This document shows positions 7,932 to 41,500 of a stretch of DNA of 41,500 bases, in pieces. Source of the stretch: a virus; the IMG/VR virus record IMGVR_UViG_3300032046_000071, positions 1-41,500 of that record; one strand, 5' to 3'. Every line of letters starts with the position of its first letter. Position 1 is the first letter of the stretch. The notes beneath the pieces are model-generated. The model was given only the letters and a program-made list of their open reading frames with translations, made no database searches and had not been told where the DNA came from. The position numbers and the translations under genes are program-made.

Positions 7932-8351
7932 TTATTTTCCTTTAAATAAAGGAGATATTTTCGCTATTTCAGTTAAAAGAAAAATTTTCATGTCCAATGA
8001 TAGATAACTAAAAGGTAGTTCATCATCTTTAATATTTTCTTTGCTATTTATTAACTTAGGGTAAGTAACCCCTTTAGTTAGTAATAACTCACATAAAGAA
8101 TCATTGCCACCAGATAGAAGTTGCTGGCGAACATTTTCACCTGCTATTCTTGCTGATTCCTCTACACTTTGTCCTTTTGATATTTCTAGCATAACAGATT
8201 TTATTAAATCATCACTAAATAAATCTCTGGGTATCAACGGCCTAATCTTAAATTTAATTTTCGGTTTTTTGTTATCACCTTTATCCACTTCGAAATAAAC
8301 GATTTTCTCTTCTTTTGTTATTGCTTCTAAAAAATCATCTTTATATCCCAT
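7932..8351 (-). CDS. Tail assembly chaperone-like protein
   Basis: This mostly helical protein of about 139 residues lies between the tail tube-like gene and the tape measure, the standard position of the tail assembly chaperone. I take ATG 8351, preceded by AGGAG with 5-nt spacing; an upstream in-frame ATG at 8390 would start inside the terminator hairpin. I see no second overlapping frame that would support the -1 frameshift common in this gene. Assignment is by position and general character. Confidence 0.6.
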   Translation of the reverse strand: MGYKDDFLEAITKEEKIVYFEVDKGDNKKPKIKFKIRPLIPRDLFSDDLIKSVMLEISKGQSVEESARIAGENVRQQLLSGGNDSLCELLLTKGVTYPKLINSKENIKDDELPFSYLSLDMKIFLLTEIAKISPLFKGK

Positions 8352-8361
8352 ATTATCTCCT

Positions 8362-8404
8362 AAAAACAAAATAGGGAGAATAGACTTCAAAAATCTATTC
8401 TCCC
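8362..8404 (-). terminator. Strong Rho-independent terminator after the tail tube gene
   Basis: A perfect 11-bp stem GGGAGAATAGA/TCTATTCTCCC (8394-8404 with 8374-8384), with a 9-nt loop, is followed on the minus strand by TATTTTGTTTTT. It lies between the abundant tail tube gene and the chaperone/tape-measure genes. Partial termination here would make the tube protein in excess. There is no obvious new promoter after it, so read-through seems to be required. Confidence 0.8.
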
Positions 8405-8446
8405 GAAACGGCTTCTTAACATCGCTCCCTTATTTCGAAGAAAATA

Positions 8447-9862
8447 TTAAGCGTAAGTGCTTGTATTATTCTGCAAAGTTATCTTTGCCATACTAGCTAA
8501 AGTAGAATCATATTCTACCTTCATGCCAGTTGCTACTCTTAAAGGACCAGGTCCTCCAACATTAATTGGATATGTTAAAAATAAAACTCTTGGTAAATAA
8601 ACCGCTAAATCGTAATAATGAGCTCCGGTTATAGCTGCACCGTGGAACCATAGCAGCCATTCTCTGGTAGTCCAACCTTGGAAATAAGTAGAAAAATCGG
8701 TAATTTGCTCCGGAATAATGGTCCGAGAAATAGCTCCGGTTCTATAAGCATCACTCTCTATTCTATAAATCGTATTTGTTGTATTAAGGGTCGGTGTAGG
8801 AACTAAACCATTTGAGAATGAAAAATTTAAGTCAGTTGAAAGACTATCTGCAATAAATATTTTATAAGTCGAACCAGTAGCAACATTGACAGTCCAGTTA
8901 GGACTTATAGTTAAAGTATCTGCGGTATTTGAGGAAATCTTCCTTATCTGATTCGGTCCTGTACCCCCTGTAATATATACAAGATATCCGGAGTAAGCGT
9001 TCACTGTCCAGGCAGCTGCGGTATGCACAAGAGTTGTAGCTGAACCTCCAGTGGCAGTTCCTGAAGTTGCAAGACCTACACCAAGTGTTAAATTATCCCA
9101 AGTAAAAGGGCTAGTTACGGGTAAATTTGGGGTGGTCTCAGTAATATTTGTGGTAGTTTTACCTAACCAACTTGCTGTTGCAGATAAAATCTTAGCTCCT
9201 GTAGCAATATTAAATGCTAAGTTATTTATAACACAACCCGAATAACGAAATGCAGGTGTTGTACCAGTTAAATCCTTATGAGACTCAATACTGTAAGAAG
9301 GAAGAACTGAATTCTCGGGGCCATCTAATATTTCATACGTATCAGTAGAAACAGCGGCAGGAGAAGTGGTAACAGTAATAGTCGTCGCAACTGTATCAGT
9401 AATATAGCCATAAGCCCCGGCTCCAGTTCCAGTTTTTACGTGAACCCAACGACCATTATGCTGATCAACACTCCAAGATTTAGTTGAATCAATTATTTGG
9501 GATCCACTTGTTCCCGCAGTTGCAGTTCCAGTATCTCTAGCCCTTGTAGCCAAAGCCGTGTATACATGAGTATAGGATCCAGTGTTATCTGTAGTTTCTG
9601 GAGAACCAAAAGCGGATCTAAGAATATAACCAAGGCCAGCCGGATGAACTTCATGTACTGTATCACCTGTTACAGTATTTAAACCTTCAATATTATTAGA
9701 TTCAAACCTTCTTGCTAATAAAGAAGCAGGAATTAAATCTTCAATTGCATGAGTTAATGTCTCTGAGGTATACGGTAAATAAGCTGTAGCCCCAACACCT
9801 GTTCCATAAACAGTTTCCTTTCCAAAACCTAAATGTGTTAATTTTCCTGTAGTTCCGCCCAT
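8447..9862 (-). CDS. Major tail tube-like protein with two inserted beta domains
   Basis: This is a 471-residue protein with a TAGGAGGG-led ATG. Residues 1-105, 180-260 and 340-471 form a body resembling phage tail tube proteins (HLGFGKETVYGTG near the N-terminus). Two homologous beta modules are inserted at about 108-180 and 264-340, each with an S/A-x-W strand, a GTGA/GTGP turn and a T-x-T-V-S/T strand. The same module occurs once in the capsid protein. Its place before the chaperone and tape measure, followed by a strong terminator, supports the major tail protein. The inserts are probably exposed on the tail surface. Confidence 0.7.
   Translation of the reverse strand: MGGTTGKLTHLGFGKETVYGTGVGATAYLPYTSETLTHAIEDLIPASLLARRFESNNIEGLNTVTGDTVHEVHPAGLGYILRSAFGSPETTDNTGSYTHVYTALATRARDTGTATAGTSGSQIIDSTKSWSVDQHNGRWVHVKTGTGAGAYGYITDTVATTITVTTSPAAVSTDTYEILDGPENSVLPSYSIESHKDLTGTTPAFRYSGCVINNLAFNIATGAKILSATASWLGKTTTNITETTPNLPVTSPFTWDNLTLGVGLATSGTATGGSATTLVHTAAAWTVNAYSGYLVYITGGTGPNQIRKISSNTADTLTISPNWTVNVATGSTYKIFIADSLSTDLNFSFSNGLVPTPTLNTTNTIYRIESDAYRTGAISRTIIPEQITDFSTYFQGWTTREWLLWFHGAAITGAHYYDLAVYLPRVLFLTYPINVGGPGPLRVATGMKVEYDSTLASMAKITLQNNTSTYA
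8843..9073 (-). repeat. Inserted beta module, second copy in the tail tube gene
   Basis: This encodes residues about 264-340 of the tail tube-like protein. It shares with the other two copies the pattern SGTAT-G-S, an aromatic A-W-x-V-N-A-Y strand, GTG turn, I-S-S-N-T and S/T-x-Y-K-I ending. It is a protein-level repeat and only weakly conserved at DNA level. Confidence 0.6.
9323..9541 (-). repeat. Inserted beta module, first copy in the tail tube gene
   Basis: This encodes residues about 108-180 of the tail tube-like protein, with TGTATAG, a STKSWSV strand, TGTGAG turn, a TTITV strand and STDTYEI ending. It is closest in pattern to the module in the capsid protein at 19890-20108. Confidence 0.6.
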
Positions 9863-12277: not shown

Positions 12278-14374
12278 TTAGAAAGTTACCATAAGTGCCT
12301 TTCGTTTTTTTGTAACTGCACCGGTTGTTGTTTGTCCTGAAAAAATACCTGAAGCTTCGCTCCAAAGTCCTTGTTCATCTGCAAGCCATACATTAAAGTA
12401 ATACGTTGTTGAATTACTTAACCCTGTAACTATACGCTTTTGACTTTGTGAAGCAACAACACTTGTGCTATATTCCACCCAATACATATTCTGATAATCG
12501 TTCCATACACCTGTACTCCATTCTACATTATACGACGTCCATGTTGTCCATTTTATTCTATACCATCCGTTTGTTATGTTACCAGAACCATCGTCATCAC
12601 CAGAGGCTGTCCATGATAAATTTATATTTCCCGCTGATGAACCTGTTACTGCCTGTTTTCCACTAACAGCATTTGGCGAACTCTGGTCAAGTGTATAACT
12701 TAATGGATATGAAGATATTATTATATCGTCCATATAATAATCATCAAATATCATTCCTACCACTCCAGCCCCATGAACCCCTATATCTGTTTTCCCCCAC
12801 CCTGTTGTCATTGCACTACAATCAAGACTATCAAAATCTCCCATAGATATAGAAGTTCCATCTATCCAATAATCGCAATCTGTAGATGAAATCGGATAAT
12901 TAAGTTTCCCTACTGCTGTAAACCATGTATTGGGATTGTGTTTTATATCCGAAGCAAGATACGTAAAAGCACCACCATCCCATCCTCTAAATACAGTCGT
13001 TGGTCGAGAATTAACATCCCCACCAACCCATGTTTCTGACGATACTTGTGTATAGAAATAATATGTCGGACCATCAGCATCACCAAAGTTAAAATAGCTG
13101 GTATCTAATTCACTATGTAATTGATCCCACAAACTTGAACCAATATAAACTGACATTCTAAAATAAACAGTTGCTGTTGGAGTAAAATCTCCGTATAGAA
13201 TAGCAAGGTCATCACTTGCAGTTGTATCAACACCTCTAAGAGAACATGCACCGTTTCGTTTTATTGTTATATCATTATATATTGTAACCCCTGTTTCAAG
13301 CGATGCACTATCCCATTTACCGGCGGGAGTATTTCCTTTTAAAGTGGCTGTAGGTGGTCTGTTAAAATCATCATAAAATAATGGAGTGGGGTCAACCCCT
13401 CTGAATGTTGAATAATTATCTTTAGTCATTATTTTACCACTTGTACTTGTTATATCCCATGCGAATACAGTATATGTTACATCTCGTAATGTTGCTGTGC
13501 TGAATTTTAATTCAACCGCTTTATCTGTTGCTCGAACTGTAACTGATGATGGGTTTCTTGAACCATTCTGTAACGGTGGAGATATTATATAATTAGTTAC
13601 AGCCGAGCCAAGAGGTGTATCTGTAAAGTATACTCTTACAGTATCTGAACTAAAAACTGATACAGAGAATACACTAAGCTTTGAAGCATCATATAACGTT
13701 TCTACTTCACTATCGGTCTTCGCATAATTCCATACTGCCCAGTCGTCATATATAGCATTCGCCGCTTGAACCCCCGACCTATTTGTAAACAAATGAGATT
13801 GTTCCTCATCAATTCTTACTGAATTATTAGTTACCGTCTTACTTGCAACCATTACAGCATTTATGTATTGTTTAATATTATTCCCTCTACTGTATGTTGT
13901 CACAAAGTTATACCATACATTCGAACTTAAAACAGTTCCGTAGTGATATAAAACAAGGTTACCACCGATTTCATTTGCTAACTGCATTCTTAACTTTTTA
14001 TCTGGTACTTCATATTGCAAGAAGTGTGTATATCCTGGGCCGCATTGAAAAAAGTATGTATCAGCTGGCGGTGCTGAAGTAAATTTTACCCAAAAAGAAA
14101 AAGTAAAAGTGCTAACACCATGTAAATTGAATGTATTTGATGAAGTTACACAATTAGTGGTTATACCTTCAAATGATTTTATACCATTGCCCCACTTACC
14201 TGTAACCCAATTTACCCCTGTTAATGTTACTGTATCATAACTTACGCAATCAAAAGTATTTGTGCCAGAACCTTCATCAAAACTCCACTTTCTTATTAAA
14301 CCAGGGTCATTGCACGCAACTTGTGCATATAATGTTGTTGGTATAAACAATAATATAAACAATAATTTTTTCAT
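12278..14374 (-). CDS. Secreted LamG / Fn3 protein
   Basis: This is a 698-residue protein with a clear Sec signal peptide (basic start, hydrophobic core, cleavage after LYAQ). A laminin-G/concanavalin-like domain follows (about 27-230; IRKWSFDEGSG, then FTFSFWVKF and IYDDWAVWNYAKTD). Next are a beta domain (about 235-330) and a second lectin-like domain (about 330-560). A fibronectin III-like module near the C-terminus (about 585-685) is marked by LSWTASGDDDGSGN and TYYFNVWLADE. The modules suggest glycan or surface binding outside the cytoplasm. A signal peptide is unexpected for a virion protein, which would have to stay in the cytoplasm. The start overlaps the upstream stop by ATGA. Confidence 0.8.
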   Translation of the reverse strand: MKKLLFILLFIPTTLYAQVACNDPGLIRKWSFDEGSGTNTFDCVSYDTVTLTGVNWVTGKWGNGIKSFEGITTNCVTSSNTFNLHGVSTFTFSFWVKFTSAPPADTYFFQCGPGYTHFLQYEVPDKKLRMQLANEIGGNLVLYHYGTVLSSNVWYNFVTTYSRGNNIKQYINAVMVASKTVTNNSVRIDEEQSHLFTNRSGVQAANAIYDDWAVWNYAKTDSEVETLYDASKLSVFSVSVFSSDTVRVYFTDTPLGSAVTNYIISPPLQNGSRNPSSVTVRATDKAVELKFSTATLRDVTYTVFAWDITSTSGKIMTKDNYSTFRGVDPTPLFYDDFNRPPTATLKGNTPAGKWDSASLETGVTIYNDITIKRNGACSLRGVDTTASDDLAILYGDFTPTATVYFRMSVYIGSSLWDQLHSELDTSYFNFGDADGPTYYFYTQVSSETWVGGDVNSRPTTVFRGWDGGAFTYLASDIKHNPNTWFTAVGKLNYPISSTDCDYWIDGTSISMGDFDSLDCSAMTTGWGKTDIGVHGAGVVGMIFDDYYMDDIIISSYPLSYTLDQSSPNAVSGKQAVTGSSAGNINLSWTASGDDDGSGNITNGWYRIKWTTWTSYNVEWSTGVWNDYQNMYWVEYSTSVVASQSQKRIVTGLSNSTTYYFNVWLADEQGLWSEASGIFSGQTTTGAVTKKRKALMVTF

Positions 14375-19484: not shown

Positions 19485-22049
19485 CTATACAGATGTTGCA
19501 AAGTTGGCATCAATACCTTTATTCTCAACTATTGCAAGTCCATATTCGAATCTTACTTTCCAACGTAGCCTATCATTTGTAAACACCTCACCAAGTGCTG
19601 GCTGATCCTGAATTACAAGTGTAGGTTCTCTCTGATCGTCGACATAACCGATTTCAATTATATCACCATCAGCTTTATCAATAGCTGCAAACCAATAATA
19701 TTGATAAGTCGACCCTGATATAAACGGACAATAAATCGGCTTTAAAGTCTTAAAATGCTCATTAGATGAATTTGTTGCATCTTCTGGATTCTTATCAGAA
19801 TTAAGTAATGAAAATACCTTACCTCTTAATTTTTCACCAAAAATTATGTAAGAAGCTTCCCATCCGATTATCTCATCATCATTCTGAGCTGTGGATATTT
19901 CGTACTTTGTATCAGTTGAAGGATTTGCTGTCCATGTCGAAACCGTCAGGGTTGTACCGTTATTGGAAGATATCAACCTAGTCTGACCAGCCCCGGTACC
20001 AGAAACAAGGCGCACATAATAATTCTGATAAGCATTGGTTGACCAACTTTTGCCAGAATCTACTATTGTTGTGCTTGAAGACCCTGTTGCTGTACCTGAT
20101 TCCTGCGCTGAACCTCTTTCCTTTGCAGTCGCTATTCTTGTCTTTGCATCTGCAAGCGAATCATATCCTAGTGCTGCTGTTGAATAGTTACCAAAAGTTG
20201 TTGAAAATACGGTTGTGTTTGTCGGAGTATAGGTACCATTTGCTAATAGCAAATTTGATATATCTCTTTCTCTTGTCCTTAATGCCGCAGTAGCTATTCT
20301 CTGAGGAATAGTTTTTACCAATCCCAGATCATCATTTTTAATTGTTTTTCTGGAAACTGATACATAACCACCCTTTGTTGCAGCTGTATATGTTGCTTCT
20401 TCATCTTTAGGTTCGTAAAGATCAGCATAAGCTGCATCTTCTGTAACGGTTGGAAGGGTACTATATCCGCCCCATTTCACCCTTTCTTGCTGCTTAAAGC
20501 TATCTATTGAAACTTCGGTTACTACCGGTGCAAAAATAAAAGATCTCTTCTTAAACATACGAGTTAACTTTCTTGTCATTGAGGTTCCAAGAGCATAAGT
20601 AAAATCTGATGTAGTTATCGCTTCCTGAAGCCTTGAAAAATGTTTCGACCTGTCTATTCCACCAGAAATTGAAGGATCCTCAGGATGAAAAGCCCTATAA
20701 GATTCTTTTAAACTCGTAAATTTACCAACTCCTTTAAATTTTTCAGGAACTTCAGCTTCATCATCAATCATCCTATCCATTGCAAACTGCATCTTATCTG
20801 ATTCGTCTGCAATAATTTCTAACTTAGACTGGCCCAAACCTCTAATTTTTCCACTTTCTGATAATTTGCCGAGAACTTCTTTTTCTTCCTTAATTGAATC
20901 TTCAACCTCATTTGCATCAAACACTCTGCCTTCAAATCTCTTTTTTATCTTATCTTTTACCACTTCCGGCAAATCAGATTTAGATAAAGATTCAATCAAA
21001 ACTGCTGAACAATGTGCTTTTTTTGTATCTTCCTGAACCTGAACTACAGACTTTTTTATTTCTTCAATTTGGTCAAATGTTTCTTTCATCTTTTTTTCCT
21101 CCTCCTCTTTCTTTTTCTTTGCTTCTTCGATATCTTTATCAGTCTTTGCTTCTTTAGGTGCAACTTGAGGATATCCATAGTATTTGGAAACTGAGGGATA
21201 ACCATACTGTTCAAGTTTAGACTTTAAAGCAGTTAAAAGTTCCATAGCTTCTACTTTTTTATCGCCCTTTAAAAGCTCTATTAATCTATCTAAAGTTGCT
21301 GCCATAAAAGGACCGCCTGCTTCTTCAATTTTAACTTCATCGGACTCAATTAAATACTTAATAAGCGAAATTTCCTGATCTGCAGTGATATTGTTTAAAT
21401 CCAAACCTTCAACAATGACTGCATTAAGGCTTTTTACTTTTTCAAATAACTGTTTAATCCACTCCATTTTATTGTCCTCCTTAATAAAATCTTTACTAGC
21501 AAGAAGTCTACAGAATTTGCCACCAGCTGCAGGATTAGTTACCAATGTAACTTCATTTATTGATTTTATATCTTCAACTCGCCAAACCTTTTTGCCATCT
21601 ATTTCATCTTCACTCAGAGTGCCATCACCATCAATAGAAAAACCAAGTAAGGATTTTACACCATTTTCCCAAGCTTCCTTAAGAAACTTTCTGAGCCACA
21701 ATGCACTCTCGGGAATATGAAATTTGGCTAATATTCCTTCCTTCGTCATTCCATTATCATCCTTAAAGGTTGTATACTTAGGTTCGCTATACCAACCTAC
21801 AATATTTTTCAAACAACCTCCAGGAATAACTTTACGTACAGATCCAGGTAAATGATTCCAAATCTTACCTTGAAACTCGTATGCAAAAGCTTTGGCATTT
21901 TCAAAAAGATTAACCGCCCTCTTTAATACCTCTGGCGGATAAAACTTTTTGTTTAGACTCGGGCCAGCTTGAATTAAAACTACTTCCCAATCTTTTCCTT
22001 CTTTATCTTTGGATTCAATTAATCGAGATGGTGAGTAAAAATTAAACAA
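19485..22049 (-). CDS. Prohead protease-scaffold-major capsid fusion protein
   Basis: This single 854-residue ORF combines three normally separate functions. Residues 1-185 are an S78/XkdF-like prohead protease with candidate catalytic His 66 (IWNHLPG) and Ser 138 (LLGFSID) and a VTLVTNPAAGG strand. Residues about 195-430 are a charged, helical scaffold or delta domain with an E/K-rich coiled coil near 305-345. Residues about 440-854 are an HK97-like major capsid protein with a beta insertion at 648-720. The ORF starts with TTG behind GGGAGG. A much stronger in-frame start (ATG 21467, Met 195) lies exactly at the protease/scaffold boundary. The likely outcome is a little full-length protein and much scaffold-capsid. 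The stop is TAG. Confidence 0.85.
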   Translation of the reverse strand: MFNFYSPSRLIESKDKEGKDWEVVLIQAGPSLNKKFYPPEVLKRAVNLFENAKAFAYEFQGKIWNHLPGSVRKVIPGGCLKNIVGWYSEPKYTTFKDDNGMTKEGILAKFHIPESALWLRKFLKEAWENGVKSLLGFSIDGDGTLSEDEIDGKKVWRVEDIKSINEVTLVTNPAAGGKFCRLLASKDFIKEDNKMEWIKQLFEKVKSLNAVIVEGLDLNNITADQEISLIKYLIESDEVKIEEAGGPFMAATLDRLIELLKGDKKVEAMELLTALKSKLEQYGYPSVSKYYGYPQVAPKEAKTDKDIEEAKKKKEEEEKKMKETFDQIEEIKKSVVQVQEDTKKAHCSAVLIESLSKSDLPEVVKDKIKKRFEGRVFDANEVEDSIKEEKEVLGKLSESGKIRGLGQSKLEIIADESDKMQFAMDRMIDDEAEVPEKFKGVGKFTSLKESYRAFHPEDPSISGGIDRSKHFSRLQEAITTSDFTYALGTSMTRKLTRMFKKRSFIFAPVVTEVSIDSFKQQERVKWGGYSTLPTVTEDAAYADLYEPKDEEATYTAATKGGYVSVSRKTIKNDDLGLVKTIPQRIATAALRTRERDISNLLLANGTYTPTNTTVFSTTFGNYSTAALGYDSLADAKTRIATAKERGSAQESGTATGSSSTTIVDSGKSWSTNAYQNYYVRLVSGTGAGQTRLISSNNGTTLTVSTWTANPSTDTKYEISTAQNDDEIIGWEASYIIFGEKLRGKVFSLLNSDKNPEDATNSSNEHFKTLKPIYCPFISGSTYQYYWFAAIDKADGDIIEIGYVDDQREPTLVIQDQPALGEVFTNDRLRWKVRFEYGLAIVENKGIDANFATSV
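19890..20108 (-). repeat. Inserted beta module in the capsid protein
   Basis: This encodes capsid ORF residues about 648-720 (SGTATGSSSTTIVDSGKSWS, then SGTGAGQ, TTLTVS and TDTKYEI). The same module occurs twice in the tail tube-like protein. It probably projects from the capsid surface. Confidence 0.65.
21465..21482 (-). promoter_or_regulatory. Internal ribosome site and start within the protease-capsid ORF
   Basis: The minus strand reads AAGGAGGA (21482-21475), seven bases, then ATG (21467-21465), in frame at codon 195. It is a near-perfect Shine-Dalgarno site in a coding region, at the end of the protease domain. It predicts a 660-residue scaffold-capsid product. Confidence 0.8.
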
Positions 22050-22640: not shown

Positions 22641-22856
22641 TCAAGTTTTTATTTTAACTAATTCTTTCGTCGGCACTTCATATATTCTTTCGCTAAATTT
22701 TACAACTGCAAGTTGTGGTATATCTATATCATAAAATGCTTTATCATCAACTACAAACAAAATTTCATGCGTGCCTTTATATGGCGGTCTTATTTCTATA
22801 ACTACACCTTCCATACCTTCCCAAGAAACTTTATCATGTATTTTTATCTTGTCCAT
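22641..22856 (-). CDS. Small beta-barrel-like hypothetical protein
   Basis: The 71-residue protein overlaps the end of the large multi-enzyme ORF by 23 nt and lacks a clear ribosome site, so it probably depends on coupled translation. Residues 5-30 (HDKVSWEGMEGVVIEIRPP) resemble a KOW or SH3-like barrel strand pair. No family is assigned. The gene ends just before the capsid promoter. Confidence 0.55.
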   Translation of the reverse strand: MDKIKIHDKVSWEGMEGVVIEIRPPYKGTHEILFVVDDKAFYDIDIPQLAVVKFSERIYEVPTKELVKIKT

Positions 22857-25800
22857 TTTTATTTAAAATCAATTTATGATTTTTAGTTGAAATTAAAGAA
22901 TAAGTAGAATTCTGATAAAATATTTCAACAGGAAATTTAAATTCATCCATATGAAAAGTAGGCATTTGTGTCGAACTTGAAATAAATTTTGTATCAGAAT
23001 CCTTTAATTCTTCTCCGGGCAACCTGCCTTTTGAAAATATCCAAATTTCTGATTTAGGATCCTCTCTTCTTAATACATAATATCCCTTAAGCAAATCACC
23101 ATTGAATTTAAAAGATTTAAAGAGATCAGAATCTTCAATTAATTCTACTGACGCGGTATCCTTTATATCCATAAAAACCGGTAAGCGTTCATTTGGATTA
23201 TCAAACTTTTCACCTTTACCCTCTCCTGGATAAATATTTTCCCATTGATCAAGATAGACTTTTTGCCCTTTTTTGAACCGAGCAAATGTTTCTTTTGTTT
23301 CAATTGTTTTGCCATCAGAATCTATAACCAAGTAACTACTACTATTTAATTTATCCCTAATTTCAACTTCTTTTAACTTGGCATCCTTCGGAGCTATACT
23401 GCCTTCAAAATCCATCCAACCAGTAAAATTATCATCTTTCGTAGTATCATAATCAATTTTAGAATATATAGCTGATACTTCTTCTTGCTTAGTGGGATCA
23501 CCATAAAATTCTCCTGAAAAATCCCATCTATCCAAGTAATCTTTATTCGAATCTATGAGTAATTCAAACCTGGAATCGGTCGCTGGCAAACCTCTTACAA
23601 CCTTAGGTCCCATCCACCAATGCCATCTTAAAGTAAACCTGCCCTTTGATTCAAGTATATTATCAAAATCTATTACTTCTTTTAACTCAATCTTCTTAGC
23701 ATTAATAAAACCTTGATTTATCAGATAATTGAAAGCAAGATCCAATCTTTTTATTTTTTCTGTTTTATCAAGTCCGCCAATCCACCATTTATGTTCATCT
23801 TTAATTCGTTTTTCCCATTCAGGGGGTATAGCCTTTTCACTATCTTTAGGTACATAATCTCGTTTATCTACTCTTTGTCTTTTAGATAATATATATGGTA
23901 GTTGATCTTCCATGTTAATCCAAGCTTGCCATTGACTAACTCCTTTAGGCGGCTTATCCCATTCTGGGGCTACACCTATAAGTCGTTCGACCATTCTGCC
24001 TTTAAAATGCTTCATATCAAAAAAGAATTCTTTAAAATAAGGTCTATTAACTCCGGGATACACCATACCTTCATCCATAGTAATAAATACACCTTCTTCG
24101 TATCGAGTGGCACCAACTGAACCAGGTGGGTATACAACTTCTCTAACATTCAACCATACCAGGGGTTGTTTAGCCTTAAAAGTCATAACAACTTTCTTAT
24201 TTGGGTCCATATCTGGCCTAAATTTACCTTCTTTAAATAATATAGTAGACCATTTCTTACCTTTTTCAATAGTATCAACATCCTCAGTAATCAAACCTTC
24301 GGGTAAATTAAAAATGGTCTCACCTTCAAGAAAACCATCTTGTTTCCTTCTAAAGTCTAAATGCGCAGATTTACCTCTAAAATGACTTATTAAAACAGCA
24401 TAGTCCTGCGGATAAGATTCCAGTTCTTGTTTTGCTTCATATATAGTAACACCATCTTTTGTAATATGTTTTTCCTGTAGAACCCTATTACGTTCAGCTT
24501 TAGATACTACTTCTTCTAAAGTATTAGCTTCTTTAGGTATCTCCTCAAGCGTGTTATCGATATCTATATATCTGGGTACCCATGCACTAACAGAATAAGT
24601 ATCTGTATTTTTATCTTCAATTAAATTTAATGTTTCAAATTCCACTGCAATTAAATCTCCTATTTCTTTTTTCTCATCAGTATTAAAAGTTGTGCCTACA
24701 CGAATATAATTTTTATTATTCATTTTAACTAAATCTTCTTCCTTGACTTTGTATTTACCCGGCAGTATACCATAATCATAATTAAATATTGTCTCCACTT
24801 TAGTAGTATTTCTTTTTAAAACTATACCATATAACAAAGCGTTATGGTGCCATTTAACCCACCCTTCTCTTGAATTGGTATCTAAATAATAAATTGAATT
24901 AGCTTTCTTAGCTACTATACCTTCAGACGCAACTTGTTTTTCAACAAAATCTAAATATTCTACAAGTTCCTTTTTAGAATGTGAAATTAAGTTTGGTACC
25001 AAATTTAACTTATATTTCAAATCTGGAATAGAAAATGTTGCCTGCTCAAATTTAATTTTATTTAAATATTCCTGCCGTTCTGATTCGTTTTTTTTATGCA
25101 GATCCTCGCCATTGTAATATAAACAAGTAAAAACATTTGTTACTATTTCTTTATCATCCGGTTCGCCTTTTTCATGCATATATCCTGCAACTGATTCACG
25201 AGGTTGATGTTTGCTTTCATGCCATTTTTCTAATTCTGTATCTAAAATAACATCATCTACATTTAATTTCTTTACTGCAGTGATAGTTGTAGGTAACCTA
25301 TCTGATAAATTTTCACCATCTTCTGACCAAATTTCTACTTTATCTTTGGATTTATATATAAAAGCTCTTAAACCATCATATTTTTTGGAACTATAAATAC
25401 CCTCTTTGTAATCTTCATCAGTAAATAATGAAATAAAAAACTCTTTTGTCATGCGCTCGCCAGGATTAGCAGCTCTCACCGGTTTTAGACCATAAAAAAA
25501 TCTAAACATTTCTATCTTATCTTCTTTTAAACTCAATTCAGCTTCTTGTCTTTGTTTTTCACCTGCTGCCCGAGCCTGCTCATAAAATCTTGTAGCAAAA
25601 CCGGGCTCCTCCAGCCCTACCTCTACAAACTGATTATGCATAGTAGGTACCAATGCAAGATTATATAATGGAAAATGTCGCCAGTTGGGACCAAAAGGTG
25701 AAGCATGCAAGCAAGGATATATGCCTGTAAGTTTCTTTATTAACCGATTTATTTTTATAGCAAAGGATGGATCTATATTTCTATCTCTAATTACTATATC

Positions 25801-27561
25801 TAAATCATTCGGTAACCGATTTTTTGCATATAATGTTGATCCTGTCCAGCTCATATAATTAGGTACTAAAACTATGTTACCTATTTTATCTATTTCGGAT
25901 TTTATATCTAAAACATATTTATCTAAGTTACTGGATTCGGCTAACCATTCTCTGTTCTTTTCAAACTTAAAATTAGATACTATTATCTCTTTATCCATCC
26001 TACGTCCTCGTGTTGCTATACCAAATAAAGTTGGCCGTTCTATGGTTTTAAAATGCCAGCCTTTATCTTCAAAAAACTTCTTGTGTTCCAAACTACAACT
26101 GACAATAAACTTACCTTTCACACCTTCCAGAAACTCTACAAAATCCTTTGTTTGAAAATCTTTACCTACGGGACCTTTCCATTGGACTTCATATGGTGGG
26201 TCGAAATAATAAAAAGTTTCTTTTGAATCATATCTTTTCAATTTTTTATAATCCGAATTAAATATCTTAACTTTTTCTAATCGTTCTTTAATTTTTTCTA
26301 AATTGGAAAATGCAGGTCGCAAACTTAATCCTAGCCGGGTAGGGGATATACTTTTTCTATCTCCAGAAAAACTTCCTTTTAAACCATATAAAAAATCCAG
26401 TAAACCAGGAATACCATGTTTATTGCTTTTCCATAGTTCTTTAACCCTTTCTTTTCTACTTATCCAATCAAAATCCTTGGATTTATCTCTTATTTTTTCG
26501 GAGTCCGATTCCTTCAGAGTTATCCAAGCATTATAAATTTGTGGATCTAAATCATTTATTATTTCTGTATCCGAAGGTTTCTTTTTAAATAAAATTATAC
26601 CACCACCTACAAATGGTTCTACATATATTTTATGTTCAGGAAAATATGATACTATTTCCTTTGCTATTAAACTTTTGCCCCCAGGACCGCTAAAAGGTTG
26701 TCTAATACCTTTTCTTAATAAACCCGAATAAGTTTCTAGTTCTTCTACTGGAATATAATCTAAATTTCTATCTTCAATTTCATCTGTTAGTAATATATAA
26801 GCATTAATAACTTCTTCATCTTGAGGATTGCTACCACGTTCTTTAAATATATCATAAATAAGTTTTAATTTATTTATTAGTTCGCTATCGGATTCGATAG
26901 CAAGTTTTTCTGCATCCCATTGTGCTGGATCAAAGTTTAACTGTTCTTTAATATCCAATTTATTTATAAAAGTTTGCACTCCCTGAGGCACAATAACTTT
27001 TAATGGTTCGGGCAAGGGAATAAAATCACGAATAGCATATATATAAAATGTTTTTGTATCAGACCACCATTTTAATCGTTCATCATCAGTAATTAAATGT
27101 TCTTGTTTTAGTTTATTAAATTCTTCAATATTAATTGCATAAGGTTCTTTTAATCTTATATAACCATACGCTTTTTTATCTGATACTAAAATATAAAAAC
27201 TGCCAACTATAAAAGACCTTGACTTAACTATTAGCTTCTTTTTACCAGTATAAATATATTCACCATGCGGTTCAACCAAATATATACCTTTTGAAATTAT
27301 ATTACTGAACACTTTTAAATAAAGTTCTTTTGCAGCTTCTGTCCAAGTTTCAGGATGAAATTCTACCTTACTTCTGCGTATTATTTCTTTTAAGATTTTT
27401 TCAGATAAATCTATTATTTCTTCCGCACTATATTTAAACTTACCTTGTAATTTAAGATTAGACCACCATCCTGCAACTATACGCCAATCATCTGATAGCT
27501 GCTCATCCGTCAAATCTAGTGGATTGTAAGTTTTTAAATCTTGTATTTCTAAAATTTTCAT
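22834..27561 (-). CDS. LigD-like multi-enzyme protein: ASCH-like, Dam, nucleotidyltransferase, ATP ligase, phosphoesterase
   Basis: This is a 1575-residue protein from ATG 27561, which overlaps the upstream stop (ATGA) and follows GGGGG. Residues 108-195 are an ASCH-like domain. Residues 285-535 are a Dam-type N6-adenine methylase (FSGPGGKS 290-297, FVGGG 317-321, DPPY 454-457). Residues 560-690 are a nucleotidyltransferase-like domain (GS 574-575, DLD 586-588). Residues 700-1000 are an ATP-dependent DNA ligase: motif I KYDGLR with Lys 727, EDG at 747-749, LDTELE 773-778, EGIVAK 880-885, WVKWH 901-905, then an OB fold. Residues 1050-1200 resemble the LigD 3'-phosphoesterase (His 1060, HLDFR 1067-1071). 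A possibly degenerate second copy lies near 1308-1350. All key motifs are intact. It could methylate, clean and seal DNA ends. An upstream in-frame start at 27600 is less likely. Confidence 0.85.
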   Translation of the reverse strand: MKILEIQDLKTYNPLDLTDEQLSDDWRIVAGWWSNLKLQGKFKYSAEEIIDLSEKILKEIIRRSKVEFHPETWTEAAKELYLKVFSNIISKGIYLVEPHGEYIYTGKKKLIVKSRSFIVGSFYILVSDKKAYGYIRLKEPYAINIEEFNKLKQEHLITDDERLKWWSDTKTFYIYAIRDFIPLPEPLKVIVPQGVQTFINKLDIKEQLNFDPAQWDAEKLAIESDSELINKLKLIYDIFKERGSNPQDEEVINAYILLTDEIEDRNLDYIPVEELETYSGLLRKGIRQPFSGPGGKSLIAKEIVSYFPEHKIYVEPFVGGGIILFKKKPSDTEIINDLDPQIYNAWITLKESDSEKIRDKSKDFDWISRKERVKELWKSNKHGIPGLLDFLYGLKGSFSGDRKSISPTRLGLSLRPAFSNLEKIKERLEKVKIFNSDYKKLKRYDSKETFYYFDPPYEVQWKGPVGKDFQTKDFVEFLEGVKGKFIVSCSLEHKKFFEDKGWHFKTIERPTLFGIATRGRRMDKEIIVSNFKFEKNREWLAESSNLDKYVLDIKSEIDKIGNIVLVPNYMSWTGSTLYAKNRLPNDLDIVIRDRNIDPSFAIKINRLIKKLTGIYPCLHASPFGPNWRHFPLYNLALVPTMHNQFVEVGLEEPGFATRFYEQARAAGEKQRQEAELSLKEDKIEMFRFFYGLKPVRAANPGERMTKEFFISLFTDEDYKEGIYSSKKYDGLRAFIYKSKDKVEIWSEDGENLSDRLPTTITAVKKLNVDDVILDTELEKWHESKHQPRESVAGYMHEKGEPDDKEIVTNVFTCLYYNGEDLHKKNESERQEYLNKIKFEQATFSIPDLKYKLNLVPNLISHSKKELVEYLDFVEKQVASEGIVAKKANSIYYLDTNSREGWVKWHHNALLYGIVLKRNTTKVETIFNYDYGILPGKYKVKEEDLVKMNNKNYIRVGTTFNTDEKKEIGDLIAVEFETLNLIEDKNTDTYSVSAWVPRYIDIDNTLEEIPKEANTLEEVVSKAERNRVLQEKHITKDGVTIYEAKQELESYPQDYAVLISHFRGKSAHLDFRRKQDGFLEGETIFNLPEGLITEDVDTIEKGKKWSTILFKEGKFRPDMDPNKKVVMTFKAKQPLVWLNVREVVYPPGSVGATRYEEGVFITMDEGMVYPGVNRPYFKEFFFDMKHFKGRMVERLIGVAPEWDKPPKGVSQWQAWINMEDQLPYILSKRQRVDKRDYVPKDSEKAIPPEWEKRIKDEHKWWIGGLDKTEKIKRLDLAFNYLINQGFINAKKIELKEVIDFDNILESKGRFTLRWHWWMGPKVVRGLPATDSRFELLIDSNKDYLDRWDFSGEFYGDPTKQEEVSAIYSKIDYDTTKDDNFTGWMDFEGSIAPKDAKLKEVEIRDKLNSSSYLVIDSDGKTIETKETFARFKKGQKVYLDQWENIYPGEGKGEKFDNPNERLPVFMDIKDTASVELIEDSDLFKSFKFNGDLLKGYYVLRREDPKSEIWIFSKGRLPGEELKDSDTKFISSSTQMPTFHMDEFKFPVEIFYQNSTYSLISTKNHKLILNKNGQDKNT

Positions 27562-28424
27562 GTCAGCCCCCATTCTTCCATATATGGTATTGATTGACAC
27601 CGGCAGTTTATCACGTTACCAGGGCTACCTGCTGGATCCCTGGGTTCCATTAATCGTTCACCGCTAACTATAAACGGTTCATTAACATCTTTAATTTGAC
27701 CGTGAACTTCAGAATGGTTCCATTTCGTCCTGGAAGGAAATATTTTTCCTTTATATAATGGCCTGACTCGTTCATCACGCGCTGTCCACCATTGTTTTTT
27801 TAATTCAGGAACTTTTTTTACTGCTTCTTCATCAGAAGATTGCCGGGATAAAGAATATACCCTGTTTATTTCAGTCCGTGTAATTATATCAGACCTGTTC
27901 ATATAACCTTTCTTTTTGGAAATCCCAATAATTTTATCAATATTTCTTGCTGCTTCAAAATTGTTTTCTCCTGTTAGAATACTTCGCCTTAAACTCCTGG
28001 CTATGTCATCTCTCATACTTGCCGTTAAATTTTTAACTAAATCTGCACTTGAAGATAAAGAAGCTATTAATACTTTATTAGTTATTATAGGCATATCAGG
28101 TATAATTTTTAATTCAGTTAAAATTTTACCTGATAAAGTTGAACCATCTTTAAATGATATAGTTTGATATCCAGTTAAAACATTATTCATTTTTGTTTCG
28201 AAAAATGTTATCTTGCTATCTACTTCACGTAACATAGATCTATAATATGCCATCCTAAACCTAGAAACTCCTTTTAAAGATTCGGAAATATCTAACCTGG
28301 TTTTCTTAAGTAAACCTAAAATCTCTTTGCTGGCAGATTTGGTATTTAAACTCAGTCTCTTAAGATTATCACGTATCCTTCTGGCAACCAACTGCCTTAT
28401 TTCATTTGCCGTCATTGGACTCAA
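27558..28424 (-). CDS. MuF / SPP1 gp7-like head morphogenesis protein
   Basis: This 288-residue minor head protein is encoded after the portal. The C-terminal MuF signature is clear: WWTARDERVRPLYKG (about 213-227), SEVHGQIKDVNEPF and PGNVINCRCQ near 268-280. The N-terminal two thirds are helical. I use TTG 28424, which overlaps the portal stop and sits 7 nt after GGAGG. ATG 28415 is the alternative but is too far from the site. Such proteins usually sit inside the prohead beside the portal and may be injected with DNA. Confidence 0.9.
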   Translation of the reverse strand: MSPMTANEIRQLVARRIRDNLKRLSLNTKSASKEILGLLKKTRLDISESLKGVSRFRMAYYRSMLREVDSKITFFETKMNNVLTGYQTISFKDGSTLSGKILTELKIIPDMPIITNKVLIASLSSSADLVKNLTASMRDDIARSLRRSILTGENNFEAARNIDKIIGISKKKGYMNRSDIITRTEINRVYSLSRQSSDEEAVKKVPELKKQWWTARDERVRPLYKGKIFPSRTKWNHSEVHGQIKDVNEPFIVSGERLMEPRDPAGSPGNVINCRCQSIPYMEEWGLT

Positions 28425-29842
28425 TATGTATCCTCCAAGTCTATAGTTGGATCTACAACTTCCACCGCTTCCCTTTTCTTACTATAAATATCTCTTAATT
28501 TGGGATCAATACCTTCTTCAACTTCAACCTTTTCTTCTTCTTTTTCAAGTTCAAGTCCAATCTGATTTAGTAAATGTTTAAAAACTTTACCAGCTACTGA
28601 TTGACTTACCCAACCTTCTTCACTAGCTACTGTTAACGAATTAGCTAAATTTATTAATGAACTTGAAATCATTTCAAGTTCCTTCTCCTCAATCCTGGGT
28701 ATATTTATTTGTACAGGAACATCTTTATGCTTTTCATCTAAATTTTTATGTAAAATGAATTGATGTATAACATATCGAAAAATATAAGACATCATGTATT
28801 TTAAATACCGTTGCCTAGATTTTAGTTGCTTTTTGGTTGCAAGGTCCATAGATAATGCTGTAGCTCGAGTTATGCCTTCAGCATCTGAAAACCAATGGCC
28901 AGGAAAACCTGACCCCGCAAGAAAATGGCTAAATAATAATTTTGCCTCTTTACTGGCATCATCTGATGCTAGTTCGGGTACCTTTATACTTAATTCGGTT
29001 TTTTCGTTATGACCAAAAACTGAACTAGGTTCTGGCAAAGTAAAATCCCGTAAATATGCCTTTATCTCCTCCGAACTCTTACCTTCCATTTTTAAATCAT
29101 ATATTATACGATTCATTATATCAGCTCGTTCAGCACGATTATATAAAAAGTTTTCATAAGCATCTAAACCATCTGCTAAAGGAAATAAATCTGACCTGCC
29201 TCGAGTTGCATTGCTAACATTATTTATAGTGAAAAAAAATGTTTCACCACGTAAGTATCCGTCATCTAAATTAATTATCTTCTTCTCAATTTCTTTTCCA
29301 GCTGGATCATTTGTATAATATAATTTTGTCCTAATTCTTGCATCATCTGTATCAGTTTCAATTTTACTAATTAATACCGGATCTAAATAACCTAACGTAA
29401 CAAAACCTGTATGCTCTTGCACAAATGTAGGATATACTTGTTCACCATATAATGATAATTCTAAAACCCATTGTTCTTGCTCTTTAGTTAAATTATTTGC
29501 ATCCCAAAAATTTCTTAATATATCGTATACTTCAGGAACTGAACAGGAAAAAGTTATACCATCACCTATAACAAAATCTTTATATCGTTCTATCATTCGA
29601 TGCGCTATACCATTCTTGTCATATAAAAAGTAGGATACCTTCTGCATTTTATATTGTTCTAATGGACTCAATTCTTTTATTGTAGCTTTTGTTATAGGCC
29701 GCCAACCTATATCTTCACGACCTATCGCGGGAGATTGTGATGATTCTTTTAACTTAGCTTTTAATTTATCAAACTTGCTATCTACTAAATTGTCTACCTC
29801 TTTTTTAAACATGCTCGCTGCTATTGCAGATATGAATCCCAT
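28421..29842 (-). CDS. Portal protein
   Basis: This is a 473-residue phage portal, forming the ring at the capsid vertex through which DNA enters and leaves. It has the usual plan: an N-terminal wing region with MIERYKDFVIGDGITFS (about 83-100), a central stem with GETFFFTINNVSNATRGRSDL (about 194-214), a crown-side helical region with KSRQRYLKYMMSYIFRYVI, and an acidic C-terminus. The start overlaps the terminase gene by 22 nt and has GGAGGAG. Confidence 0.9.
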   Translation of the reverse strand: MGFISAIAASMFKKEVDNLVDSKFDKLKAKLKESSQSPAIGREDIGWRPITKATIKELSPLEQYKMQKVSYFLYDKNGIAHRMIERYKDFVIGDGITFSCSVPEVYDILRNFWDANNLTKEQEQWVLELSLYGEQVYPTFVQEHTGFVTLGYLDPVLISKIETDTDDARIRTKLYYTNDPAGKEIEKKIINLDDGYLRGETFFFTINNVSNATRGRSDLFPLADGLDAYENFLYNRAERADIMNRIIYDLKMEGKSSEEIKAYLRDFTLPEPSSVFGHNEKTELSIKVPELASDDASKEAKLLFSHFLAGSGFPGHWFSDAEGITRATALSMDLATKKQLKSRQRYLKYMMSYIFRYVIHQFILHKNLDEKHKDVPVQINIPRIEEKELEMISSSLINLANSLTVASEEGWVSQSVAGKVFKHLLNQIGLELEKEEEKVEVEEGIDPKLRDIYSKKREAVEVVDPTIDLEDTY

Positions 29843-31623
29843 ATACTTCTCCTCCTTTTATATCTTAGTTTATCAAATCCTGCTCGTTGACTTGCATCTG
29901 CACTTGTTATTAAACTTGCTTCTATACCAGAATCCCTGGTACAATGCCAAACTACACCGGATACTGCATCAGCTGAATCTTTTGAACCACCAATTGGATG
30001 ATCTACTTTATCACCATCTAATTCTAATTCTAATAGTTCATTCTCCAACACTTCATCTATATAACAACGAAACCTATTTGTGTATATCTCTTCTTTCAAA
30101 CTATCTTGTTGCTGGATCTTGATAAATAATGTTTCTACTTTATACCCGCACCTTTCACATACCTGCGTTATAGCTCTTGCTGCCCATGTATCATAACTAA
30201 TAAGCTCTATATTAGGTATCCGACGAAATAAATCTTGCATGAATTTTACTACCTCTTCTATCTCTATTTCCTGACCGGAAACTTTAGGTAAGATACGATG
30301 TATTAAATCTATTGCTGTTTTACCTGTCTTTGTCTTATGACCCAAGGCTATTGCAAATGCATCATGATTTGAAGAAGGATCTAAATGCATGTAATATCTT
30401 ACTCCAGGCAATGGTTTGAACCAATCCTGAAACCTACCTTGTTCATCTAATGGATTTCTATATCCTTCATTTTGTGAAGTCTTAAATATATCCCGGACCC
30501 TATCAGGCATGGTATAATATTTTCCTGTAGAATAGCCTATCATAGAAGCTTTATCCCTTAAAAATTTACCTGCATTCTTGTCAAAATCGTCTTTATGTTC
30601 GACCGGTATATCTATACCTCGAAAATTAAATGTCTTACCAGTATACCTGTCCGGCTGCATCTCCCATTCTGACATCCAAAATCCTAACATAGATTTTATT
30701 TGTTTACATAATTCGTATTGCTTTACCATAAAACCTTTTGAATGTACTAAACTGGATATACATACTCTATGTCCTTCTTTGCCAAATGGGTCCGTAGACT
30801 TGCTTAATGCTTCGTATACCTCTTCAGCTGAGTATTTACCTGACCGGGTTGATACAAACCTGTCCAACTCATCAAATAATACTAGTTTACATGTCTTACC
30901 TACTAACGATGCCGAATTGGAATGACCGGATAACATTATTACATTTGTATCTTTAAAATGGTATGCATCACCTATAGCCCGGGGTCGCCTGGTTTTGAAA
31001 TAGGGCGACCGCTCCATACTTGCCTTTGTCTTTGCAAATATCGTTGTCCGTGCTTGCTCTGCATTCGTTGCTACATTGATTATATATATCTCCTCACCAG
31101 GAATAAAACCATAATGCTTACATATATCACCTATCTTGTATAATAAATACTCTTCTATTTGTACTATTAATGCCGCTAATGTTGTCTTACCACCTTTCAT
31201 GCCAATCAGTAATACTAATTCCTTGTAATCACCACCTTCCTCCCATGTCGTTTTTCCCTCCCTCTTTAATTGCCATAACCGCAGTTTCTCATCTTCACTT
31301 AACTCTAAATTGTAAAATGCTTTTAACATTAACCGTTGCATAAACTTCGGCTTTATAGGTAAATATTCATCACAAAATTGTACCGGATTCAAATCTAATC
31401 TTATTTCTTTTAACGGTTGGATTAACCGCAAATTATCCCAACTCGCTAATTCTGTTTTTACTTCACCACGTATATTTCGCTCATGAAAATAGTATAATGG
31501 CTTGCTTAAGTTCAGCCTTGCCATTATTTCCATCGGCCTAACACCATCTAATTTTAAATGCTTTATCTGGCTCTTTAATTCGCTTATCTCCTTACTTGAC
31601 CGCCGCTTTTCTATTATTGCCAT
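29821..31623 (-). CDS. terL: Terminase large subunit
   Basis: This packaging ATPase and nuclease has 600 residues. Residues 10-55 form a helix-turn-helix-like segment that may replace part of a small terminase. The ATPase shows Walker A GMKGGKT (141-147) and Walker B LVLFDE (247-252). The nuclease shows acidic residues at Asp 415 (MHLDPS), Asp 478 (SYDTW), Asp 541 and Asp 549 (DHPIGGSKDSADA). No obvious small terminase gene is present. The short gene at 31638-31952 is in its usual position but has no visible DNA-binding motif. The ribosome site is weak. Confidence 0.92.
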   Translation of the reverse strand: MAIIEKRRSSKEISELKSQIKHLKLDGVRPMEIMARLNLSKPLYYFHERNIRGEVKTELASWDNLRLIQPLKEIRLDLNPVQFCDEYLPIKPKFMQRLMLKAFYNLELSEDEKLRLWQLKREGKTTWEEGGDYKELVLLIGMKGGKTTLAALIVQIEEYLLYKIGDICKHYGFIPGEEIYIINVATNAEQARTTIFAKTKASMERSPYFKTRRPRAIGDAYHFKDTNVIMLSGHSNSASLVGKTCKLVLFDELDRFVSTRSGKYSAEEVYEALSKSTDPFGKEGHRVCISSLVHSKGFMVKQYELCKQIKSMLGFWMSEWEMQPDRYTGKTFNFRGIDIPVEHKDDFDKNAGKFLRDKASMIGYSTGKYYTMPDRVRDIFKTSQNEGYRNPLDEQGRFQDWFKPLPGVRYYMHLDPSSNHDAFAIALGHKTKTGKTAIDLIHRILPKVSGQEIEIEEVVKFMQDLFRRIPNIELISYDTWAARAITQVCERCGYKVETLFIKIQQQDSLKEEIYTNRFRCYIDEVLENELLELELDGDKVDHPIGGSKDSADAVSGVVWHCTRDSGIEASLITSADASQRAGFDKLRYKRRRSIWDSYLQ

Positions 31624-35672: not shown

Positions 35673-36275
35673 TTAAGAATAAAGCATCGCTTTTTCTGCA
35701 ATCTCTATCAGGTTTACCCCTCTCGTCGCCGCACTCACCGCCGACCACGCCGCCATCTCCGCCGCCCACGCCGCCGACCACGCCGCACTCTCCGCCGCCC
35801 ACGCCGCCGCACTCTCCGCACTCGCCACCCACGCCGTCGTACTCGCCACCCACGTCGCCCTCGCCGCCGCCTCTGTCCTATCCTTGCCTGACAACCAGTT
35901 ATCAGCCCACTTATTCCATGATTCTTCGGTATACACCTCTTTTGCACATAGAATTCCGTAAGCTACTTTCTGTATAATGGTTATAGCAGGTAACGGTATC
36001 TGTTTTATTGTCGTCAAGTTCCGCACCCCAAGTTTTAACTGCCCATCACGTTTGGGATTATCTGTTGTCTTGCATTCCCACAAATGCATAGTTTCAGGGT
36101 CATAATTTCCATGTATGGGATTATGTAAAACTGCAAGTAACGGGTGCTCGTAGGCATGTATCCAGCCATCCGAGCATAAATTCCCTTTCCCACTTACCTT
36201 ATGGGAAATATTCTCTCCCCATTGACACTTATTCCAAGTTTGGTTCTTTTCGTCAGTGATTTTATACAGTTTCAT
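35673..36275 (-). CDS. Ala/Trp-repeat family protein, copy B (intact)
   Basis: This is a 200-residue protein from ATG 36275 behind AGGAGG. Residues 1-130 are the conserved family domain (CSDGWIHAYEHPLLAVLHNP, TMHLWECKTTDN, SWNKWADNWLSGKDRTEAA). Residues 131-180 are an Ala/Ser/Glu/Trp repeat in which Trp residues are spaced 4, 7 or 10 apart, a heptad-like pattern that would give an amphipathic helix or Ala-rich coil. It ends with INLIEIAEKAMLYS. It has a different place from copies A and C, next to the replication genes. The function is unknown. Confidence 0.85.
   Translation of the reverse strand: MKLYKITDEKNQTWNKCQWGENISHKVSGKGNLCSDGWIHAYEHPLLAVLHNPIHGNYDPETMHLWECKTTDNPKRDGQLKLGVRNLTTIKQIPLPAITIIQKVAYGILCAKEVYTEESWNKWADNWLSGKDRTEAAARATWVASTTAWVASAESAAAWAAESAAWSAAWAAEMAAWSAVSAATRGVNLIEIAEKAMLYS
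35716..35876. repeat. GC-rich coding minisatellite of copy B
   Basis: This GCC-based repeat encodes the Ala/Trp tail of copy B. It is the longest of the three tracts. The other two minus-strand frames are also open, giving Gly-rich and Arg-rich readings. Confidence 0.85.
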
Positions 36276-41037: not shown

Positions 41038-41500
41038 TTAAGAATAATGCATCGCTTTTTCTGCTATTGAAATCAGGTTTATTCCCCACTCCGCCGCCAT
41101 CGACGCACTCGTCGCCGCCATCTCCGCCGCCCACGCCGCCGCACTCTCCGCACTCGCCACCCACGCCGTCGTACTCGCCGCCGCCCTCGCCGCCGCCCAC
41201 GCCGCAGCCTCTGTCCTATCCTTGCCTGACAACCAGTTATCAGCCCACTTATTCCACACTGCTTCAGTACACACCTCTTTTGCACATAGAATTCCGTAAG
41301 ATATTCTCTGTGTACTGGTTATAGCAGGTATCGATATCTGTTTTATTGTCGTCAAGTTCCGAACCCCAAGTTTTAACTGCCCATCCCGTTTAGGTTTTTT
41401 ATCCGTTGTCTTGCATTCCCACAAATGCATAGTTTTAGGGTCATAATTTCCATGTATGGGATTATGTAAAACTGCTAACAATGGATGCTCGTAGGCATGT
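41038..41500 (-). CDS. Ala/Trp-repeat family protein, copy C, C-terminal part (starts at 221)
   Basis: This is the rest of the gene whose start is at 221. The frame runs in from the window end with the conserved PLLAVLHNPIHGNYDP and ends at 41038. The tail is Ala-rich with Trp at irregular multiples of about 3.5 residues and closes with GINLISIAEKAMHYS. The downstream spacer (TTAAGGAACTTTTTTAT, then TTATACTGGTAAG) is almost the same as after copy A, showing that the duplicated unit included flanking DNA. It is intact once the circle is closed. Confidence 0.85.
   Translation of the reverse strand, partial: HAYEHPLLAVLHNPIHGNYDPKTMHLWECKTTDKKPKRDGQLKLGVRNLTTIKQISIPAITSTQRISYGILCAKEVCTEAVWNKWADNWLSGKDRTEAAAWAAARAAASTTAWVASAESAAAWAAEMAATSASMAAEWGINLISIAEKAMHYS
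41086..41213. repeat. GC-rich coding minisatellite of copy C
   Basis: This is the GCC-based tract encoding the Ala/Trp tail of copy C. It shares segments with both copy A and copy B, which suggests exchange or expansion and contraction among the three. Confidence 0.85.
41396..41500. repeat. Terminal direct repeat, right copy
   Basis: These bases are identical to 1-105; see that entry. The unique genome is 41395 bases if the copies are one and the same. Confidence 0.9.

Follow-up and report, generated by a model that had tools for sequence, protein, structure and literature searches.

Ku is the partner of LigD in end joining. The survival of a linear phage genome during the first minutes is commonly attributed to anti-restriction proteins and the ligase of the host. 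An answer carried by the virus itself would be indicated by a conserved core in which ligase, 3´-end phosphoesterase and nucleotidyltransferase (NT) folds are tied to the portal and the prohead protease. In the 3´-phosphoesterase (PE) domain of LigD, His84 and Tyr88 are both needed for catalysis, and the domain also has ribonuclease activity (PMC8656161). Multidomain proteins of the polyvalent type, encoded among head genes, have been argued to accompany the DNA into the cell, and phage P1 offers a precedent: its DarB, which is part of the virion head and bears an adenine methylase, acts in cis to protect the phage DNA on entry (PMC5512222). The terms 'DNA ligase', 'LigD', 'ASCH' and 'XkdF' are all absent from the text of the latter paper.

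Here we describe a viral multi-domain protein that resembles both systems. Related proteins occur in about 70 distinct virus lineages, mostly next to genes for the head, and this suggests that equipment for DNA repair may be brought into the cell by tailed viruses themselves. A description of this family was not found in literature searches, among open-licence papers.

The multi-domain gene lies within the head cluster

The window, a stretch of 41,500 nucleotides that corresponds to positions 1–41,500 of the record IMGVR_UViG_3300032046_000071, contains the gene on its minus strand (22834..27561). The reading frame is open from the ATG at 27561 to the stop at 22834 and encodes 1575 amino acids, as the original prediction had stated; an alternative in-frame start (GTG at 27600) would give 1588 amino acids. 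The initial scans yielded five close relatives, which rules out a chance reading frame or a misassembly, and intact relatives exist.

The neighbouring genes, all on the minus strand, were assigned by Pfam and PHROG matches. The large terminase gene (29821..31623; phrog_9, 7e-10) is followed by the portal gene (28421..29842; phrog_10963, 5e-29), a MuF-like head gene (27558..28424; PF04233, 5e-13; phrog_2468), the multi-domain gene and a head protease-capsid fusion gene (19485..22049; PF25209, 1.5e-25; phrog_29592 and phrog_133), which places the gene between the MuF-type head gene and the capsid gene as proposed. The ATG of the multi-domain gene overlaps the TGA of the MuF-like gene in an ATGA, an arrangement of translational coupling that agrees with the coupling claimed before.

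Domain architecture

The domain order from the N- to the C-terminus is helical, ASCH-like, helical, Dam, NT fold, ATP-dependent ligase, OB fold, PE1 and PE2 (all coordinates in this section are on the minus strand). The N-terminal helical domain (residues 1–89; 27295..27561), with predicted helices at residues 19–39, 46–63 and 75–89, shares about 50% identity with two relatives, L004 and L005. The second helical domain (residues 203–285; 26707..26955) has predicted helices at residues 217–222, 225–241, 249–264 and 273–283. Between them lies the ASCH-like (PUA-like) domain (residues 90–202; 26956..27294), for which profile A7 matches 2dp9 (2.7e-5) and 1wk2 (2.5e-5) over nearly the full length; both belong to TTHA0113, an ASCH/PUA-like protein. 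The fold search with the N-terminal model gave weak ASCH matches. Because this model is poor (pLDDT 53) and the fold search returned no match at E <= 0.001, the assignment rests on the profile search, at which level the predicted ASCH-like domain is borne out.

The Dam-type (D12) adenine methylase (residues 289–540; 25942..26697) matches PF02086 from residue 293 (1e-18, far above the curated cut-off) and phrog_56 (2e-39), and contains the EPFVGGG and DPPY motifs. The NT-fold domain (residues 560–652; 25606..25884) is matched by the family NT profile (1.2e-29) and retains GS..DLD with N as the third acid. Its assignment, made earlier as nucleotidyltransferase-like, is supported by a G[GS]..DxD motif in nearly all relatives and by a weak Pol-beta-palm match in one of them, L016. 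The ATP-dependent ligase nucleotidyltransferase domain (residues 719–910; 24832..25407), which had been predicted around Lys727, matches PF01068 over residues 719–903 (7e-21, also far above the curated cut-off), in addition to PDB profile and fold matches. The profile match to archaeal ligases extends through the OB domain (residues 911–1002; 24556..24831). Archaeal and human DNA ligases are the best matches of the family core profile, the OB domain being included in the archaeal ones, and they are also recovered by the fold search with the predicted structure of residues 535–1575 (mean pLDDT 76.5; 85–96 over most of the ligase).

All the best 50 fold matches listed for the structure of residues 535–1575 are ligases, with PE domains absent among them, and the Pfam scan gave zero PE matches in the window reading frame. 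In contrast, the family profile of the C-terminal third matches the solved PE structures 3p43 (6.7e-7) and 3p4h (1.4e-4). Two PE domains are distinguished because 3p43 is matched twice, with its active-site half at PE1 and its second half closer to the C-terminus of the protein, and because at this second site 3p4h is matched by profile A6 from end to end. PE1 (residues 1046–1240; 23842..24426) carries the metal residues, while PE2 (residues about 1301–1528; 22978..23661) is a PE-like domain without them and had been overlooked. PF13298 matches on relatives stay below the family cut-off, including a weak one at the PE2 region of L020. The LigD-type 3´-phosphoesterase of the original prediction is thus confirmed by the 3p43 and 3p4h matches, the conserved metal residues and the sub-cut-off PF13298 matches on relatives.

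Kept and lost catalytic residues

The motifs of every catalytic domain had been described as intact, which does not hold for the NT domain, the ligase or PE1. In the NT domain the third acid is N in the window, against D in most of the distant relatives. The ligase retains Lys727, Asp729, Glu776, Glu880 and Lys885, and the Lys is invariant in 23 of 23 aligned sequences. However, motif IIIa reads FT instead of FD, motif V has His in place of its second Lys, and the RxDK of motif VI, present in the ANMV-1 and L021 types, is absent. The lost motif VI and NT third acid indicate that the NT and ligase domains of the window clade may be weak or inactive.

The metal residues of PE1 are strongly conserved wherever they could be aligned over the family (H1060 in 70/70, H1067 in 75/75 and D1069 in 75/75 sequences, with R1071 in 74/75). 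The position of LigD Tyr88 is W in 81 of 81 family sequences (W1136 in the window) and that of His84 is Q or E in 71 of 81 (Q1132). Near-copies were only partly removed from all of these counts. The Q/E and W replacements thus characterize the family as a whole. That the metal site is so strongly conserved argues for PE1 being an active enzyme, and the altered second shell argues for a different substrate or mechanism.

Distribution and head linkage of the family

Besides ANMV-1, the first scans recovered five close relatives in IMG/VR. When phage records were searched by tblastn with the full-length protein, Dam matches dominated the output; with a Dam-free query, ANMV-1 was the only core match among the matches listed, and a scan with ANMV-1 alone gave zero matches. 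The core profile identified 22 virus loci and five MAG contigs (Elusimicrobia, Omnitrophota, Methanosarcinales and Methanophagales), and the PE profile identified 77 loci, which collapse to 69 lineages at 90% PE1 identity and all carry PE by construction of the search. The ligase is encoded in the same gene in 36 lineages and in an adjacent gene in 22 (58 together), and was not found in 11. The two domains, where separate, are therefore still neighbours, and the case of scattered, non-conserved genes, which would have spoken against a multi-enzyme protein, was not encountered. In the searches that started from the ligase, PE was also present in the loci whose contig ran on, the degenerate L008 being the exception. 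The order NT, ligase, OB and PE1 is fixed when these lie in one gene (42 loci without and 6 with protease fusion, before collapsing).

Head markers (portal, protease or capsid) lie nearby in 53 of the 69 lineages, and 24 have a portal upstream together with a capsid, protease or fusion. An XkdF-type prohead protease is fused to the core in 19. These counts are lower bounds, as the marker profiles were built from a small number of seeds and the contigs are often short, which also applies to the 16 lineages in which no head marker was found. The ASCH-like domain of the window protein is 44% identical to the portal C-terminus of L021 and 43% to that of L023; a portal profile matched the ligase gene through this common domain, and the head-marker counts were made without that match. 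The upstream portals belong to several PHROG families (phrog_10963, 12, 146, 9232 and 113), and the ligase and OB tree follows the portal type, needing 3 changes, the minimum, versus a shuffled mean of 8.2. The head-cluster setting is therefore conserved over very different viruses and, with the protease fusions, goes well with the prediction made from the single locus. In most records the head-cluster ligase is the sole ligase. The 77-kb virus G007 has a second, conventional ligase at 57.9 kb, far from the head-cluster copy, so the latter is not simply its replication ligase.

Comparison with known systems

Like LigD, the window protein combines an ATP-dependent ligase, a 3´-phosphoesterase and a nucleotide-adding fold in one chain. 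The ligase KxDG motif is present (K727), and His42, His48 and Asp50 of the LigD PE metal site correspond to H1060, H1067 and D1069, with R1071 at the position of Arg52. In contrast to LigD, the protein has an NT fold where LigD has the AEP polymerase, the order is NT-Lig-OB-PE-PE, Q/E and W stand in place of His84 and Tyr88, and the genomic context is that of head genes. An AEP-type polymerase domain has no Pfam match in the window reading frame. Ku was found in none of 15 records, some of them fragments, in a search that recovered the B. subtilis control; the host may still supply one. Since Ku was not found, there is no implication of classical end joining (NHEJ), and the sealing of nicks and gaps or the joining of annealed ends is more likely. 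A plain LigD is ruled out by the failure to find Ku in these records, the lack of an AEP match and the altered PE residues, whereas the claimed LigD-like pairing of a phosphoesterase with a ligase, a nucleotidyltransferase replacing the polymerase, is borne out by the domain evidence.

The polyvalent proteins of phages and conjugative elements are likewise large, modular, encoded among head genes and proposed to be injected, and adenine methylases occur among them. The window protein shares with them at least two functionally different domains and a position among packaging and head genes. However, the core of its family is an end-repair module, and the linking domains of polyvalent proteins (zincin-like MPTase, SWI2/SNF2, ART, and MuF in the same chain) are absent from the window reading frame in the Pfam scan, with only the Dam theme in common. 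The family is hence neither LigD nor a listed polyvalent architecture and resembles both, with a PE subfamily recognizable by a distinct signature (Q/E and W), an additional PE that is non-catalytic and a domain common to portals and the enzyme. DarB also places an adenine methylase that acts on phage DNA in a virion head protein, a location that for the window protein would be by analogy, but its methylase is EcoKI/TaqI-like and accompanied by a SWI2/SNF2 ATPase and no ligase. The window methylase is predicted to be of the Dam (D12) class, with EPFxGGG, DPPY and PF02086.

XkdF-type prohead proteases (PF14550) are joined to the C-terminus of the core in relatives, whereas the window protease lies within a separate gene and has other family matches. 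MuF-fusion effectors differ in that the window MuF is a separate, overlapping gene and not part of the same polypeptide. Unlike a replicative phage DNA ligase, the window protein has no Pfam N-terminal DNA-binding domain, and its neighbourhood is head rather than replication. The one named record found for the family is ANMV-1, an ANME archaeal virus, whose AJP62006 ('ATP-dependent DNA ligase') is a true relative with the same core. AJP62006 is shorter (866 aa), lacks Dam and ASCH, and is annotated as a ligase only. Its gene lies between the portal and a protein that ends in a MuF-like zinc motif; the portal match (KP703175.1, 1913-3193; phrog_146, 2e-30) is annotated as 'MutT-like phage hydrolase'.

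Proposed role

The best reading, towards which we lean with modest confidence, is a head-associated protein of the polyvalent type that repairs and protects viral DNA and is delivered with the genome. The core (NT fold, ATP-dependent ligase, OB fold, metal-dependent 3´-phosphoesterase and non-catalytic PE) would clean and seal ends, nicks and gaps, and the exchangeable modules, Dam and ASCH-like in the window, would modify or recognize viral DNA. The protease fusions and the domain common to portals suggest that the protein is incorporated into the prohead beside the portal, from where it may exit together with the DNA; on entry, the genome would then be repaired, perhaps circularized, and methylated ahead of host nucleases. 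At the sequence level, the reading is supported by the domains, the conserved catalytic cores, the family-wide head linkage, the protease fusion and the failure to find Ku; virion location, delivery, substrate and timing we infer. Against it stand the motif losses of the window clade, the replaced His84 and Tyr88, and the lineages without a head marker. A broader statement, that in many tailed viruses, bacterial and archaeal, the capsid delivers a Ku-free, LigD-like end-repair machine that would process and ligate the entering genome, with exchangeable DNA-protection modules, is plausible but tentative; if true, it would constitute a virion-borne DNA repair system.

The main rival, which we regard as rather unlikely, is that a portal-linked enzyme mends nicks and gaps in concatemeric DNA during packaging and is not delivered to the next host. 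The position next to the portal and the ASCH-like domain common to portal C-termini fit this equally well, and for L008, where all that is left at this position is a degenerate ligase-like protein, an assembly role fits better than delivery. However, a methylase and further DNA-modifying modules would be of more use on DNA that enters a cell, and fusion to the maturation protease suggests that the protein sits within the prohead; the domain anatomy and the precedent of the polyvalent proteins and P1 DarB lead us to favour action on the entering genome. If the NT fold, PE, ligase-like domain and the 2H phosphoesterase of L020 acted instead on damaged RNA or signal nucleotides, the protein would serve counter-defence. 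The 2H-type domain, a weak RNA_ligase match in L021, the ribonuclease activity of LigD PE (PMC8656161) and the altered second-shell residues, which may mean an altered substrate, are compatible with such a role, but it is improbable given that the best ligase matches are DNA ligases and that DNA is the substrate of the Dam and C5-methylase-like modules.

An ordinary replication or repair ligase that lies among head genes by chance would explain why most records have this ligase only; the recurrence of the position over many lineages, the protease fusion, a ligase tree that follows portal type and the virus with a separate ligase make this very improbable. Least probable of all, and only slightly less so than chance placement, is a structural or scaffold-like protein with largely dead enzymes, as might be suspected from PE2, the window-clade losses and the degenerate L008, since the PE1 metal residues are invariant in at least 70 aligned sequences and the ligase Lys in all 23.

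Variable modules and individual relatives

The position of Dam varies among relatives: it is in the middle in the window protein and L004, at the N-terminus in L007 and L012, after the ligase in L029 and in two stretches in L083. Other relatives carry a C5-methylase-like module (L025), a 2H-type phosphoesterase domain (L020) or, by eye, a metallo-beta-lactamase-like module (L043). L014 (1316-5221) and L017 (6925-11722) have an N-terminal tRNA-guanine-transglycosylase/DpdA-like module, identified by eye, which would bring in the theme of 7-deazaguanine DNA modification. L045, whose PE is 56% identical to that of the window, keeps Dam and PE1 without NT and ligase. The L008 protein (8061-9389; 442 aa), between the portal and capsid region, reads KKNG for KxDG, and a PE match was not found in it. 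A Rhizobium phage annotation, 'DNA methyltransferase/prohead protease', was rejected as a relative of this kind, its 210 aa being too short for a methylase.

Several loci contain additional genes or insertions. The portal gene has an apparent intein in L012 (2980-5466; two portal pieces) and L007 (3-548; C-terminal splice end HSNT). In L026 (6519-11911; the same virus as L057), about 2 kb with a 388-aa reading frame splits the ligase domain, perhaps as an intron, intein or homing-endonuclease insertion. Staphylococcal-nuclease-like and HNH-like genes, both identified by eye, flank the ligase gene of L004 between MuF and capsid (7473-7811 and 12652-13233), and in L002 (6703-7239) and L005 (2246-2788) MuF is separated from the ligase gene by a conserved gene of about 180 aa.

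Elsewhere in the window, three paralogous gene copies (LAVLHNPIHGNYDPETMHLWECKTTD...) lie on the minus strand at 356-883, 35673-36275 and 41038-41481, two of them near the contig ends. A repeated domain (GTAT...SKSW...GTGAG...) occurs twice in a 471-aa protein (8447-9862, minus strand), which is matched by the family capsid profile, and once in the capsid protein (19485-22049, minus strand), so that one surface-type domain seems to be common to these two structural proteins.
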